This document shows positions 50,987 to 56,894 of a DNA stretch of 64,000 nucleotides, piece by piece. Each line of letters starts with the position of its first letter. Position 1 is the stretch's first letter. The translations under genes and the position numbers were made by a program. The DNA lies in the IMG/VR virus record IMGVR_UViG_3300020578_000008, positions 1-64,000 of that record. One strand, written 5' to 3'. This DNA comes from a virus. The notes beneath the pieces are model-generated. The model was not told the DNA's origin and did not search any database. It saw only the letters and a list, made by a program, of their open reading frames with translations.

Positions 50987-51216
50987 TGTACACCATGACC
51001 GAAGAGCAATCAGTATCAAAACAAGTGGATCATATCCTAGAAACTTATTTTGAACAGTTCTCTCATCTCGTATCTAAAAATCGTAATGATGATGCTATTG
51101 CTATCGGTGATGAGGTACGTGAGTGGATGCGTAGTATTGAAACAGAAACTATTCTATACTTTAATATTAAAGAACTACGCCAACAATATAGACAATTAAA
51201 AAAAGAAAATGGCTGA
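50986..51216 (+). CDS. Hypothetical helical protein
   Basis: 76 residues, start overlapping the upstream stop (TAATG); a second ATG nine bases on is possible. Helical, Glu/Gln-rich, ending RQQYRQLKKENG. Overlaps the next oxygenase by 8 bases. Confidence 0.65.
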   Translation: MYTMTEEQSVSKQVDHILETYFEQFSHLVSKNRNDDAIAIGDEVREWMRSIETETILYFNIKELRQQYRQLKKENG

Positions 51217-51829
51217 TCCAGCAGCATTATACAATACTAAATTACCAAAAGATATTACTGACCTTATCTCTATTCATTGTCAGTCATATCATAATCAATT
51301 AGAAGCATCAACAATTAAATCTAGTGGTGTAGTACATTCAAAAAGAGATTCTCTTAATGCTTGGATTCCAGATGAAGATTGGATAGCAGGTTTTCTTTGG
51401 TATTATATCCAAAAAGCAAATTTTGCTAATTGGAGATTTGATATTACATCTATTGATAATTCCTCCTTACAATATACAGTCTATAATCCTGGTCAATTCT
51501 ATCATTGGCATACTGATTCAGGATTACGTCGATTGTATCAATCAGAAAGATATCCTACTTCTCAATCAGTTAATCTAAAAGATTACGTTATGCCATTAGC
51601 AGAATATACTCGTAAATTATCTTTCTCTCTTCAACTATCAGACTCAGATGAATATACAGGAGGACAATTACAACTCATTGCTAATGATGATCTAAACCTT
51701 AATATAGCACCAGTAGAAAGAGGTACATTAATTATCTTTGATTCTCATCTACGTCATCGTGTTACTAAAGTTAAATCAGGTCAACGTAAATCTTTAGTCG
51801 GTTGGGTAGTAGGTCCAAGATGGAAATAG
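51209..51829 (+). CDS. 2OG-Fe(II) oxygenase, prolyl-hydroxylase-like
   Basis: 206 residues. YHWHTD (H101, D103), RKLSFSLQLSD, YTGGQLQL, HLRHRVT (H183) and RKSLVGW form a complete PiuC/P4H-like core, close to the protein at 44932. Its stop codon abuts the DnaA-box-like repeats. Substrate unknown. Confidence 0.85.
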   Translation: MADPAALYNTKLPKDITDLISIHCQSYHNQLEASTIKSSGVVHSKRDSLNAWIPDEDWIAGFLWYYIQKANFANWRFDITSIDNSSLQYTVYNPGQFYHWHTDSGLRRLYQSERYPTSQSVNLKDYVMPLAEYTRKLSFSLQLSDSDEYTGGQLQLIANDDLNLNIAPVERGTLIIFDSHLRHRVTKVKSGQRKSLVGWVVGPRWK

Positions 51830-51865
51830 TTTTCCACAATTTCCACAGTTTCCGCAATTTCCACA
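51830..51865 (+). repeat. Four tandem DnaA-box-like 9-mers
   Basis: Consecutive TTTTCCACA, ATTTCCACA, GTTTCCGCA, ATTTCCACA without gaps. TTTTCCACA is the box reported for cyanobacterial DnaA. The block begins immediately after the oxygenase stop codon and is followed by an AT-rich tract. Confidence 0.7.
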
Positions 51866-52022
51866 GGTATTTAAAAATATATTAAAAAATATAGGTAGTG
51901 TGATCTATTGTATGGTAGAGTATCTAAATGGGCGGAGGTCTTGTTGTCTTAGCGCCCAACCCATCGAAAGTCAAGGAAGTATATGACAGTCCTCAAAGTG
52001 GCACAGAGACCCTCCGAGACCC
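51866..52022 (+). other. AT-rich tract and noncoding region (origin-like)
   Basis: 51868-51893 is nearly pure A/T (TATTTAAAAATATATTAAAA and on), next to the DnaA-box-like repeats, as in a DNA unwinding element. Further on is GGGCG...CGCCC (51930-51957), resembling a degenerate copy of the hairpin before 53056, and an AAGTGGCACA block at 51997. No ORF supported here. Confidence 0.45.
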
Positions 52023-52051
52023 TTGACAGACGCCTCTAAATGTCCTATACT
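52023..52051 (+). promoter_or_regulatory. Strong sigma70-type promoter
   Basis: TTGACA (52023-52028), 17 bases, TATACT (52046-52051). It would produce a leader of about 160 bases before the gene at 52215. Confidence 0.75.
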
Positions 52052-52155
52052 GTATTTGTGATTGGTCATCACGAAATTAAATGGAAGCGAGATTGAGGGA
52101 TTTCGAGGTTTTCCAAAATCTTCGAAATCTCAAAAATCTCAAAATCTCAAAAACT

Positions 52156-52185
52156 TAAAAAACTTACTTTTTTAGTTTTTTAAGA
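52156..52185 (+). other. AT-rich inverted repeat in long leader
   Basis: The leader 52060-52214 has repeated ATCTCAAAA units and the inverted repeat CTTAAAAAACT / AGTTTTTTAAG around TACTTTTTT. It may fold in the mRNA; no known riboswitch recognised. Confidence 0.45.
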
Positions 52186-52214
52186 TTTTCAAAAAACTCA
52201 ATTTTTAAATTTTA

Positions 52215-52487
52215 ATGATTTTACTGAATTCAATGATTACTAAAGAAGATCAAGGAGTAGTATATCAAGGATTTAATAGTACTGCTATTAAATCAGTTGG
52301 TATTATTGAGAATACTTGTACTGTAGTATTTAATTCTAGTGATAAAGAATATAATTACACAGTAATTGATAATAATTTTGAAGAAAACCTTCAAAATACT
52401 ATCAAAAATGGTGAAAGTGTTGGTAAATTTATCACTTCAGCAATCAAAAGTGAAAATATCCAACAAATAAATACGATTGTACAGTAA
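52215..52487 (+). CDS. KTSC-domain protein
   Basis: 90 residues. FNSTAIKSVGI, TVVFNSSDKEYNYTVID, and NGESVGKFI match the KTSC fold (S.I..V.Y, L.V.F..G..Y.Y..V, S.G..). KTSC domains occur with lysyl-tRNA synthetase and other RNA-related proteins, and alone; function here unknown. A second ATG at 52233 is possible. Transcribed from the strong promoter at 52023 with a long AT-rich leader. Confidence 0.7.
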   Translation: MILLNSMITKEDQGVVYQGFNSTAIKSVGIIENTCTVVFNSSDKEYNYTVIDNNFEENLQNTIKNGESVGKFITSAIKSENIQQINTIVQ

Positions 52488-52684: not shown

Positions 52685-52696
52685 ATGTAAACTTTA

Positions 52697-52722
52697 CCAC
52701 CCATCTTCGGATGGGTTTTTTC
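52697..52722 (+). terminator. Rho-independent terminator with TTCG tetraloop
   Basis: CCCATC / GATGGG stem with a TTCG loop and a run of six T. Confidence 0.9.
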
Positions 52723-52781
52723 ATAGCATCAAATATCCCCTCGGTGGTATCACCCTAGGACAGTTTAAGAAGTGGCACAGA

Positions 52782-52814
52782 AGACCTCCCAGGGGTGTCT
52801 GGTGGTGATATATT
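52782..52814 (+). promoter_or_regulatory. Hairpin-associated promoter
   Basis: AGACC / GGTGTCT hairpin (imperfect) over the -35 position, then TATATT (52809-52814) with extended TGA, preceded by an AAGTGGCACA block. 24 bases before the TTG start at 52839. Confidence 0.5.
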
Positions 52815-52838
52815 ACATGAGTCGTCAGGAATTGACCT

Positions 52839-53015
52839 TTGAAAGACATTCGAATTCAAGTTGAAACTTTCGACGGTTGTATCACTATTTGGTACGAACG
52901 TTCTAAGTTAAAGAATGCCTGTGATGTTATCTCCAAACGTGTATACAATCAGCTGTGTGGTTTGAATATTAAAGAGATCGACGTGAGCGTTATCGGTGAT
53001 CCTGTGACAGTCTGA
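52839..53015 (+). CDS. Small hypothetical protein (TTG start)
   Basis: 58 residues. The only possible upstream start is TTG at 52839, because an in-frame stop precedes it; AGGA is upstream. DIRIQVETFDGCITIWYE then a helix; ends VSVIGDPVTV. Unknown. Confidence 0.6.
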   Translation: MKDIRIQVETFDGCITIWYERSKLKNACDVISKRVYNQLCGLNIKEIDVSVIGDPVTV

Positions 53016-53027
53016 CAAGTGTCCACA

Positions 53028-53061
53028 GGGCATTGACTTCGCCCCCAACCCATGCCATACT
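53028..53061 (+). promoter_or_regulatory. Promoter with -35 in a hairpin loop
   Basis: GGGC (53028-53031) / GCCC (53041-53044) enclose TTGACT (53033-53038); 17 bases later is CATACT (53056-53061) with extended TGC. Drives 53088. Confidence 0.7.
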
Positions 53062-53087
53062 ATGTACATCACTGAGGGATTCACCCC

Positions 53088-54769: not shown

Positions 54770-54943
54770 ATGTACTACAACCGCTACGACATGCTGACCG
54801 CCTTTACCACTGACGAGATGGCAGTGCTCTATGATCTGGTCTGCTCCCATCAGGGCTGCCAGATCCTCCCCGACTGGATGGATCAAAAGGTCTTCGACAG
54901 TGTACAGGAAAAAGTCAGCGACGCCTACCATGAGACCACATGA
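54770..54943 (+). CDS. Small acidic protein (GC-rich array 1)
   Basis: 57 residues; YYNRYDMLTAFTTDEMAVLY, Cys pair, helical end. GC-rich codons unlike the genes before 54.7 kb. The leader is ACATCAACCACAAACACAG, without a Shine-Dalgarno site. Overlaps the next gene by 4 bases. Confidence 0.65.
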   Translation: MYYNRYDMLTAFTTDEMAVLYDLVCSHQGCQILPDWMDQKVFDSVQEKVSDAYHETT

Positions 54944-55050
54944 ATCACTACCTTGCCGCCGCTCTCCTGATGATCGTCGCCATCGGTTTCCCCATGATGT
55001 GTGCCGCCTTGGGCATGAAGGTCAACACCCGCAACGGATGGTGGGACTGA
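54940..55050 (+). CDS. Small membrane peptide
   Basis: 36 residues; hydrophobic helix (LAAALLMIVAIGFPMMCAAL), then RNGWWD. ATGA overlap with the previous gene. Confidence 0.5.
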   Translation: MNHYLAAALLMIVAIGFPMMCAALGMKVNTRNGWWD

Positions 55051-55071
55051 CCACCTGACTAAGTGGCACAA

Positions 55072-55106
55072 GGGGTCACAGTGACCCCATCCTGACCCTG
55101 TAGACT
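55072..55106 (+). promoter_or_regulatory. Hairpin-associated -10 box
   Basis: GGGGTCA / TGACCCC (7 bp, loop CAG 55079-55081), with the -35 position at the loop, then TAGACT (55101-55106). AAGTGGCACA precedes it. No -35 consensus, so the promoter is weak or needs an activator. Confidence 0.45.
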
Positions 55107-55112
55107 GACAGC

Positions 55113-55301
55113 ATGAACAACCTTAACCCCTCACTGATGGAACGCCGCTTCACCGTCTACGTTCCGTCTGACCCCTGGGAATCCATCGACTGCCAGACCT
55201 GGGCAGAGGCGCAGCGCCTGCTCGCCATCAAAGCAGACGAGTTCGTCTACGCTGAGATTCGGAAGGATGGGGTGATCCTTGACGATCTCCAGATCCTGTG
55301 A
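55113..55301 (+). CDS. Small hypothetical protein (GC-rich array)
   Basis: 62 residues; RRFTVYVPSDPWESIDCQTW, then a helix. GC-rich. TAGACT box upstream. Unknown. Confidence 0.65.
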   Translation: MNNLNPSLMERRFTVYVPSDPWESIDCQTWAEAQRLLAIKADEFVYAEIRKDGVILDDLQIL

Positions 55302-55349
55302 CAGTAGAGGCACTGTCCACCAACTACCCCAAACCCCATCAGGGGCTGC

Positions 55350-55355
55350 CATACT
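55350..55355 (+). promoter_or_regulatory. -10 box with shared leader
   Basis: CATACT with extended TGC, preceded by CCCCATCAGGGG, and followed by CATCAACCAAACGAACC before the ATG at 55384. No -35 consensus. Confidence 0.45.
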
Positions 55356-55383
55356 AAGAGCATCAACCAAACGAACCAAACCT

Positions 55384-55581
55384 ATGTGGGATGAGATCCA
55401 AGACATGCCTGGCGAGATCTACGACGTGAACCCCTACGTCGCTCAGATCCTCTCCCAAGGCAAAGAGCCCAGCAAGGCACCCGCCCCCACGGCGACCTAC
55501 CCTCGGGAAATCCACGGTCGAGTCTACCAGACCGAGGCAGAATACCGTGAGGACCTCCATGACTTTCTGAACGGTATGTGA
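55384..55581 (+). CDS. Small hypothetical protein (GC-rich array)
   Basis: 65 residues from ATG at 55384, the first after the leader. Pro-rich middle (EPSKAPAPTATYPREIHG), acidic helix at the end. Unknown. Confidence 0.65.
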   Translation: MWDEIQDMPGEIYDVNPYVAQILSQGKEPSKAPAPTATYPREIHGRVYQTEAEYREDLHDFLNGM

Positions 55582-55629
55582 CAGTGTAGGGGGTGTCCAC
55601 AGATGCCCCCAAACCCCACCAGGGGCTGC

Positions 55630-55635
55630 CATACT
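55630..55635 (+). promoter_or_regulatory. -10 box with shared leader
   Basis: CATACT with TGC; the 28 bases before it nearly repeat those at 55322-55349 (CCCCAAACCCCACCAGGGG). A GGGGG/CCCCC stem lies upstream. Leader CATCAACCAAACCAAACC before 55660. Confidence 0.45.
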
Positions 55636-55659
55636 ATCAGCATCAACCAAACCAAACCA

Positions 55660-55833
55660 ATGAAGATCGAAGTTCGTTACCAGACCCCCTACAGCAGCCA
55701 GGAGTGGCGGTCACAGTGGTTCCCCACGCTGGCAGAGGCTGAGCGGATGGTGGACTTCTACCGCTCCTGTGGATCACCCGCCCATGTGGCACCTAGCAGT
55801 CTGGCACAGTTCGAGCACCTCGGGCGCTCCTGA
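55660..55833 (+). CDS. Small hypothetical protein (GC-rich array)
   Basis: 57 residues; KIEVRYQTPYSSQEWRSQWF, then a helix. Start chosen at the ATG that ends the shared leader. Unknown. Confidence 0.62.
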   Translation: MKIEVRYQTPYSSQEWRSQWFPTLAEAERMVDFYRSCGSPAHVAPSSLAQFEHLGRS

Positions 55834-55838
55834 CCCTG

Positions 55839-55844
55839 TAGACT
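55839..55844 (+). promoter_or_regulatory. -10 box with shared leader
   Basis: TAGACT after CCTGACCCTG, then AACCACATCAACCAAACGAC and the ATG at 55872. The same CCTGACCCTG-TAGACT occurs before 55113 and 56579. Confidence 0.4.
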
Positions 55845-55871
55845 AACCACATCAACCAAACGACTCAAACC

Positions 55872-56093
55872 ATGACGACCTACAACGGATGGGCAAACTG
55901 GGAGACCTGGAACGTCGCCCTGTGGATTCAGAACGATGAGCGGACCTACAACCTCGCTCAAAAGTTCACCCGCTACAACGCTCTCATTCCCCACCTTGAG
56001 ATGCTGTGGGGGCAGATGACCCCAGACGGTGCCCGTTGGATGGACGCTAAGATCGACACCGACGAACTGGACGAGATGCTGGACGATTTCTGA
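55872..56093 (+). CDS. GW.N.ETWNVALW phage protein
   Basis: 73 residues; YNGWANWETWNVALWIQNDE near the start is a block shared by many phage proteins of unknown function (probably DUF7249). Acidic C-terminus (TDELDEMLDDF). GC-rich array, shared leader upstream. Confidence 0.75.
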   Translation: MTTYNGWANWETWNVALWIQNDERTYNLAQKFTRYNALIPHLEMLWGQMTPDGARWMDAKIDTDELDEMLDDF

Positions 56094-56103
56094 ACTGTCC
56101 ACA

Positions 56104-56138
56104 GGGGGGCGCCTTCCCCCCTCCCCCGCCTCTATACT
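56104..56138 (+). promoter_or_regulatory. Hairpin-associated promoter
   Basis: GGGGGG / CCCCCC with loop CGCCTT (56110-56115) at the -35 position, then TATACT (56133-56138) and the leader AAACACATCAACCAAACGA before 56166. Confidence 0.5.
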
Positions 56139-56165
56139 AAACACATCAACCAAACGAACCAGACC

Positions 56166-56342
56166 ATGCTCAAGACTCTCGCCATCCTCGCCCTCGGCGC
56201 CGCCTTCTATGCCCCCATCGCTACCGTGGGTGCTGCTGCCATCGACTTCGCTGCTGACACCGTTCAGGCAGTCAACCAACAGACCGCCGCCCGCTGTGCC
56301 ACCTACAACAGTGTCCTCCCTGGCGCCTGTGAGATGCCCTGA
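56166..56342 (+). CDS. Small secreted-like protein
   Basis: 58 residues; hydrophobic, Ala-rich N-terminus (LKTLAILALGAAFYAPIATV) like a signal peptide or membrane anchor, then AADTVQAVNQQTAARC and a Cys pair, which could form a disulfide outside the cytoplasm. GC-rich array. Confidence 0.6.
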   Translation: MLKTLAILALGAAFYAPIATVGAAAIDFAADTVQAVNQQTAARCATYNSVLPGACEMP

Positions 56343-56347
56343 GCGTC

Positions 56348-56353
56348 TAGACT
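56348..56353 (+). promoter_or_regulatory. -10 box with shared leader
   Basis: TAGACT then AACCACATCAACCAAACGAC, before the ATG at 56381. Confidence 0.4.
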
Positions 56354-56380
56354 AACCACATCAACCAAACGACTTCAACC

Positions 56381-56536
56381 ATGGCAACCACTTCCTTCGC
56401 TTACGGCAACTCCTACTCCCAGTCCGACCGCTTCTATGAGGACTGTGAGCACGACGACCTGATGGACGCCGACGATTACGATGCCCGCCGCTTCCAGCGT
56501 GACGGTTGGGAAAGCGCCTGCTGGGATGGTCGCTGA
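56381..56536 (+). CDS. Small acidic protein (GC-rich array)
   Basis: 51 residues; ATTSFAYGNSYSQSDRFYED, then DDLMDADDYDARRFQRDGWE. Acidic, Tyr-rich. Unknown. Confidence 0.55.
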   Translation: MATTSFAYGNSYSQSDRFYEDCEHDDLMDADDYDARRFQRDGWESACWDGR

Positions 56537-56549
56537 CCCCCTGACCCTG

Positions 56550-56555
56550 TAGACT
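56550..56555 (+). promoter_or_regulatory. -10 box with variant leader
   Basis: CCTGACCCTG then TAGACT, leader AACCACACACACACAGACACC and the ATG at 56579. Confidence 0.4.
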
Positions 56556-56578
56556 AACCACACACACACAGACACCAC

Positions 56579-56779
56579 ATGAATTTCGCAACCGCCACCC
56601 CCGAGCAACTCACCGCCGCTGGGTTCAAGTTCAAGACCGTCCGCCCCCGCCGCCCACGTAAGGGTGAGTTGATCTGTGAGATGGTCAAGTTCAGCACCAA
56701 GCGAGGCAGTCAGCAGTGGCGAGATCGTGCTCACATCGCCTCTCCCAGCGCCTACGCTGTTGTGATGGGCAACGGTTGA
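56579..56779 (+). CDS. Small basic protein (GC-rich array)
   Basis: 66 residues; FKTVRPRRPRKGELICEMVK and FSTKRGSQQWRDR are strongly basic, suggesting nucleic-acid binding. Last gene of the GC-rich array; the DNA changes abruptly to AT-rich after about 56.87 kb. Confidence 0.65.
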   Translation: MNFATATPEQLTAAGFKFKTVRPRRPRKGELICEMVKFSTKRGSQQWRDRAHIASPSAYAVVMGNG

Positions 56780-56894
56780 TCCTAGCACACCCCCAGGGGG
56801 GGCAGTGGTTTGCCCCCGCCCCCTAGGTGGGCGGCGCGCCGAGCGGGTCCCATATTTGACCCTCTCTAACCTACAAAAGTATCCAGACGACCGA

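Follow-up and report, generated by a model that had tools for sequence, protein, structure and literature searches.

Many of the T4-type cyanophages (Kyanoviridae) studied here carry, in an intergenic module of conserved order, a cluster of cyanobacterial DnaA boxes linked to an AT tract. From the boxes beside an AT-rich stretch in the DNA analyzed and the exact copies in many relatives, these phages probably start DNA copying with the starter protein of their host. T4-type cyanophages are among the most abundant ocean viruses, and to our knowledge the mode in which they start replication is not known. DnaA-box origins, and the use of DnaA by phages lambda and P1, are already known (PMC3985674, PMC4980987). 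The open-access papers searched (subscription papers lay outside the search) describe neither these boxes nor a host-DnaA origin module in T4-type phages, and Sullivan et al. 2010 (PMC3037559) do not mention DnaA.

The window is a stretch of 64,000 nt from a 156,598-bp virus record, a T4-type cyanophage with Kyano_Gp96, gp25 and gp6 baseplate genes downstream of the module. The first-pass annotation had pointed to four gapless 9-mers, and these are found exactly at 51830-51865 (TTTTCCACA-ATTTCCACA-GTTTCCGCA-ATTTCCACA). The first was said to be the cyanobacterial DnaA box and matches the published box perfectly (PMC4674748, PMC6323995). Of the four units, one is perfect, two differ from the box at a single base and the last at two; the cluster in the window is thus host-type in part, and that of the module is fully so in 11 isolates and at 21 of 61 sampled loci. 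The features are as follows, in window coordinates.

51209..51829, + strand: 2OG-Fe(II) oxygenase gene, flanking the module upstream, also in several relatives
51830..51838, + strand: DnaA box 1, TTTTCCACA, perfect cyanobacterial consensus, common to the nearest relative (L420)
51839..51865, + strand: three more gapless 9-mers (ATTTCCACA, GTTTCCGCA, ATTTCCACA) in the slot that holds TGTGGAAAA-ACC-TGTGGAAAA in relatives
51868..51893, no strand: AT tract, presumed DNA-unwinding element; relatives keep AAATGGTTTAAAAAACATAGGTA
51943..51953, + strand: GTTGTCTTAGC motif, near-invariant among 25 aligned divergent relatives
51982..52005, no strand: operator-like dyad TATGACA-N10-TGGCACA (TGTGaCA-N10-TGgCACA in relatives)
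52023..52051, + strand: sigma-70-type promoter TTGACA-17-TATACT, 11/12 match, pointing at ORF 52215-52487
52109..52117, + strand: degenerate box TTTTCCAAA in a second box slot, where the nearest relative has three perfect boxes
52115..52214, no strand: second AT-rich tract, 3′ of the promoter, containing repeats of TTTTTAAGTTTTTT type, both direct and inverted
52215..52487, + strand: small protein gene (T4-GC 805 / KTSC-like), which also follows the module in relatives

The array had been described as abutting a 26-base A/T tract in the largest noncoding region. The tract has that length, but two bases (GG) separate it from the end of the array. The gap that holds the array (385 nt, 51830-52214) is the second largest in the window, after one of 403 nt (52685-53087), and becomes the largest only if a 58-aa TTG-start ORF in the latter is counted as coding. 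The tract is the longest A/T-only run of the record (next longest, 21 nt) and occupies, at a conserved position, the place of the adjoining AT-rich unwinding element of an oriC-type origin. The window has no excess of single DnaA-like boxes (25, against 30.8 expected), and three consecutive NTTTCCNCA units at up to two mismatches gave no match in 100 dinucleotide shuffles, so the signal lies in the clustering. When the whole record was scanned for boxes allowing up to one mismatch, the array was the sole tight cluster; the only other close set is a loose pair of one-mismatch sites 35 bp apart (154912/154947).

We took the homologous intergenic region from 22 relatives chosen by nucleotide similarity. 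They have the same succession of elements: first the box slot, then the AT tract (in relatives AAATGGTTTAAAAAACATAGGTAA), GTTGTCTTAGC motif, ATCGAAAGTCAA, dyad, sigma-70 promoter and second AT tract, followed by the small ORF (T4-GC 805). Written as GTTGtCTTAGC, the motif at 51943-51953 is near-invariant across 25 divergent modules. We dropped an RNA-element reading because an Rfam search returned no relevant match and there was no covariation in the GTGC..GCAC stem around the GTTGTCTTAGC motif and none of RNA type in the dyad. No relatives were found through the oxygenase protein of the window, and alignment of the downstream ORF across relatives gave no usable pattern.

Two further observations concern the neighbouring DNA. 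A dyad-type motif (GACAG..AAGTGGCACAGA) occurs again in the next intergenic gap at about 52771 (52760-52790), as if marking several early promoters. At 54940-56800 lies a GC-rich island (up to 58% versus about 36%) made up of small ORFs. Each ORF follows a leader, CCTGTAGACTAACCACATCAACCAAACGA-CAAACCATG, that hardly varies; these are repeated early promoter/leader cassettes whose composition is apparently foreign.

When the array was sought at the same place in related phages, 11 isolates were found to carry two or three perfect TTTTCCACA boxes in the module beside the same AT tract (S-PM2, S-RIM32, S-CAM1, S-CAM3, Syn1, Syn9, S-H25, S-RIM2, Sf-FR1, Sf-CH3 and Sf-CH11). The slot holds three perfect copies in S-PM2, S-RIM32, Sf-FR1, Sf-CH11, Sf-CH3, Syn1, S-RIM44 and S-CAM3 and two in S-CAM1, and the freshwater phages DSL-LC02 and DSL-LC03 have further box sets there. 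The Syn9 module, at about 52.55-52.75 kb and absent from the blastn matches listed, reads TTTTTCACA, TTTTCCACA, TGTGGAAAA in the slot, followed by an AT-rich stretch and TCTTAGCACG. In the nearest relative (L417/L420) both slots are filled, each with three perfect boxes before an AT-rich tract, and L002 and L454 have tandem-type boxes in the second slot only. In S-H25, S-M1 (a partial stretch) and S-RIM2 the box-bearing module lies downstream, not upstream, of gp96; in S-H25 and S-RIM2 the boxes move together with the AT tract and the GTTGTNNCTTAGC motif.

The 9-base period fared less uniformly. Gapless tandems recur in DSL-LC02 (TTTTCCACA-GTTTCCACA, as in the window), L002, L454/L023, L001 and L026, the last two being IMG/VR contigs that also match cyanomyoviruses, but the exact gapless period is one variant among several and most spacings in relatives are 12 bp. 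Alignment shows box 1 of the window to be inherited, whereas gapless direct copies have taken the place of the two inverted boxes seen in relatives.

To gauge specificity we sampled 61 loci through the neighbouring gp96 protein, not through boxes. At least two perfect boxes within 60 bp occur at 21 of the 61, whereas 300 anagrams of the motif gave a mean of 0.01 and a maximum of 1 of the same loci. In whole-record scans of the 11 isolates, all pairs of perfect boxes within 60 bp fall in the module save one, a pair in S-RIM32 located 1 kb away. A 24-base pattern built from the two-box arrangement matched 86 stretches in IMG/VR, a set selected by boxes. E. coli-type boxes (TTATCCACA) do not cluster in these cyanophages, and the T4 genome has no cluster of either cyanobacterial or E. 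coli-type boxes. Six cyanophage-type contigs (L160, L186, L191, L203, L208, L218) have TGTGGAAAA boxes, four or five each, in different surroundings (CCTGTGGAAAACTATTACAAACC...) and may represent a second family of arrays.

The slot is without boxes in 11 of the 22 compared relatives. In box-less modules (L040, L254, L255, L256, L454, L002) the slot before the AT tract holds an inverted repeat, TTCTCAATAA..TTATTGAGAA(TCAAT), where another initiator might bind. No perfect TTTTCCACA occurs in the whole genomes (186-214 kb) of the box-less phages S-B43, S-RSM4, S-H9-1 and S-WAM2, against 4-12 in box-bearing relatives, a possible case of avoidance. Mapped on the gp96 tree, which is poorly resolved, box presence needs 16 changes and is more clustered than in shuffles (4 of 500 as low); the tree suggests that boxes were gained or lost repeatedly.

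On the host side, DnaA(IV) of Cyanothece binds box-containing oriC fragments and oligonucleotides in vitro, including tests of an oriC box pair at 11-bp spacing, and its oriC consists of three boxes and an AT stretch (PMC4674748); TTTTCCACA is the box concerned (PMC4674748, PMC6323995). Upstream of dnaN, Synechococcus WH7803, a host of S-PM2, has TTTTCCACG-TTTTCCCCA with no gap and SynAce01 has TTTTCCACC-g-GTTTCCACA, pairs at 9-10 nt spacing that are near-consensus, not perfect; RCC307 has weaker matches there. As these host boxes are near-gapless, the gapless array of the window resembles the host arrangement. Perfect boxes in the same orientation 0-6 nt apart were absent from ten cyanobacterial genomes.

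We lean towards the module being a replication origin that borrows the host initiator DnaA. Host DnaA would bind the box cluster and melt the adjoining AT tract, where the T4-type replisome (gp32, gp59, gp41/gp61, gp43) would load; the first, origin-dependent round may thus fire at the module, with recombination-dependent replication afterwards. The replisome genes are conserved in cyanomyoviruses (PMC2984593), and gp59 is annotated in Syn9. Several lines argue for such an origin: perfect boxes in the same module of 11 isolates with pairs nearly absent elsewhere, the contrast with the anagrams (21/61 against at most 1/61), boxes that travel with the AT tract and the GTTGTNNCTTAGC motif, perfect boxes before an AT-rich tract at both slots of the nearest relative, and an AT tract that is the longest A/T run of its record. 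The binding of such pairs by DnaA domain IV, the three boxes and AT stretch of oriC (PMC4674748) and the paired boxes upstream of dnaN in WH7803 and SynAce01 point the same way. So does the lack of DnaA domain IV in six phage records (that of the window and five relatives), on which we dropped a phage-encoded DnaA. Counting against it are the 11 of 22 relatives without slot boxes and the phages S-B43, S-RSM4 and S-H9-1 without any perfect box, the imperfection of three of the four boxes in the window, and T4 itself, for which DnaA-independent origins are known (PMC3016281) and which has no box clusters. Six genomes also showed no consistent GC-skew switch at the site; a weak skew is expected because the genomes are circularly permuted and mostly co-oriented, and we dropped skew as a test that speaks neither for nor against an origin.

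Host DnaA might instead act at the boxes on transcription, activating or repressing the early sigma-70 promoter at 52023-52051, with replication not started there or started by a T4 oriF-like R-loop running from the promoter into the second AT tract. Between the two AT tracts there are indeed a strong promoter and a dyad, a promoter followed by an AT-rich element is the layout of T4 oriF/oriG (PMC3016281), and DnaA footprints near the lambda pO promoter and stimulates transcription (PMC3985674). This is nevertheless unlikely: cluster 1 is about 160 bp upstream of the promoter and directly adjoined by an AT tract, box-less relatives keep the promoter, and of the two slots in which boxes can be found one precedes the promoter and the other follows it. 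Titration, in which multiplying phage genomes would absorb host DnaA in the manner of datA and stop host replication, we judge very unlikely; the perfect phage boxes equal or exceed the near-consensus host sites upstream of dnaN, but two to four boxes per genome are few for a sink, which would need neither a strict link to an AT tract nor a fixed module order.

The array might also be a set of iterons for a phage-encoded protein, an initiator or regulator, whose recognition sequence happens to be TTTTCCACA, a reading the first-pass annotation had set beside that of a DnaA-borrowing phage origin. The different inverted repeat in the slot of box-less relatives implies some other binding protein, and T4 oriE has 12-nt iterons (PMC3016281). 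The oriE region shows no resemblance, however, and its repeats are coding. As the motif is exactly the cyanobacterial DnaA box, no phage domain IV was found in the six records and E. coli-type boxes are unclustered, iterons of this kind appear quite unlikely and borrowing of host DnaA is favoured on the sequence evidence. A functionless chance tandem duplication of one 9-mer through replication slippage is hardly credible. The three extra units in the window do look like copies of box 1, and this AT-rich noncoding DNA commonly contains short tandem repeats, yet both box 1 and the slot are kept in relatives whose boxes are perfect, inverted and non-tandem, a form that cannot come from slippage. 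For the family as a whole, these inverted boxes and the anagram control (21/61 loci against a maximum of 1) already largely refute slippage.

A broader proposal has, in our view, a little under an even chance of being right: that much of the Kyanoviridae replicates from a dedicated, movable module capturing host DnaA instead of from T4-style R-loops, and that the slot has repeatedly swapped DnaA boxes (tandem or inverted) and the TTCTCAATAA inverted repeat, an exchange of initiator specificity between phage lineages. For well-studied phage-host pairs (S-PM2 with Synechococcus WH7803; Syn9), the conserved module marks out a precise candidate for the origin. If host DnaA does start replication there, phage replication would be tied to the cell-cycle initiator of the host, the module would be a point where a bacterial initiator recruits a T4 replisome, and the link might matter for host range and for the dependence of infection on light or growth.

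Among known systems, T4 oriF and oriG share with the module a T4-type phage and a promoter followed by an A+T-rich unwinding element (PMC3016281), here 52115-52214 after the promoter at 52023-52051. They differ in needing a MotA middle promoter and in having no DnaA boxes, whereas in the module a sigma-70-type promoter follows the box cluster and AT tract. The oriE of T4, too, belongs to a T4-type phage and has short repeated sites that lie upstream of PAAR/gp6 genes, but we rejected its repeats as a counterpart, since they are coding and unrelated in sequence. A single theta origin is predicted for Syn9 (as cited in PMC2984593, and taken here without a map position); the same genome carries the module at about 52.55-52.75 kb. 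P1 oriR and lambda pO/ori are phage replicons that likewise make use of the DnaA boxes of the host. In P1 these form two arrays, of which one lies upstream of the DUE (PMC4980987), and lambda has DnaA-protected boxes near pO (PMC3985674). Both phages differ in adding their own initiators (RepA, O) to DnaA and in being temperate and not T4-type. The dnaN-adjacent oriC of cyanobacteria (Cyanothece 51142, Synechococcus elongatus) resembles the module in its small TTTTCCACA cluster adjoining an AT-rich stretch, and the near-gapless pairs at 9-10 bp spacing upstream of dnaN in WH7803 and SynAce01 resemble the window. Unlike that oriC, the module stands on a T4-type phage genome without a neighbouring dnaN or dnaA and without a consistent GC-skew shift, and it includes an early promoter and a GTTGTNNCTTAGC motif specific to the phages.
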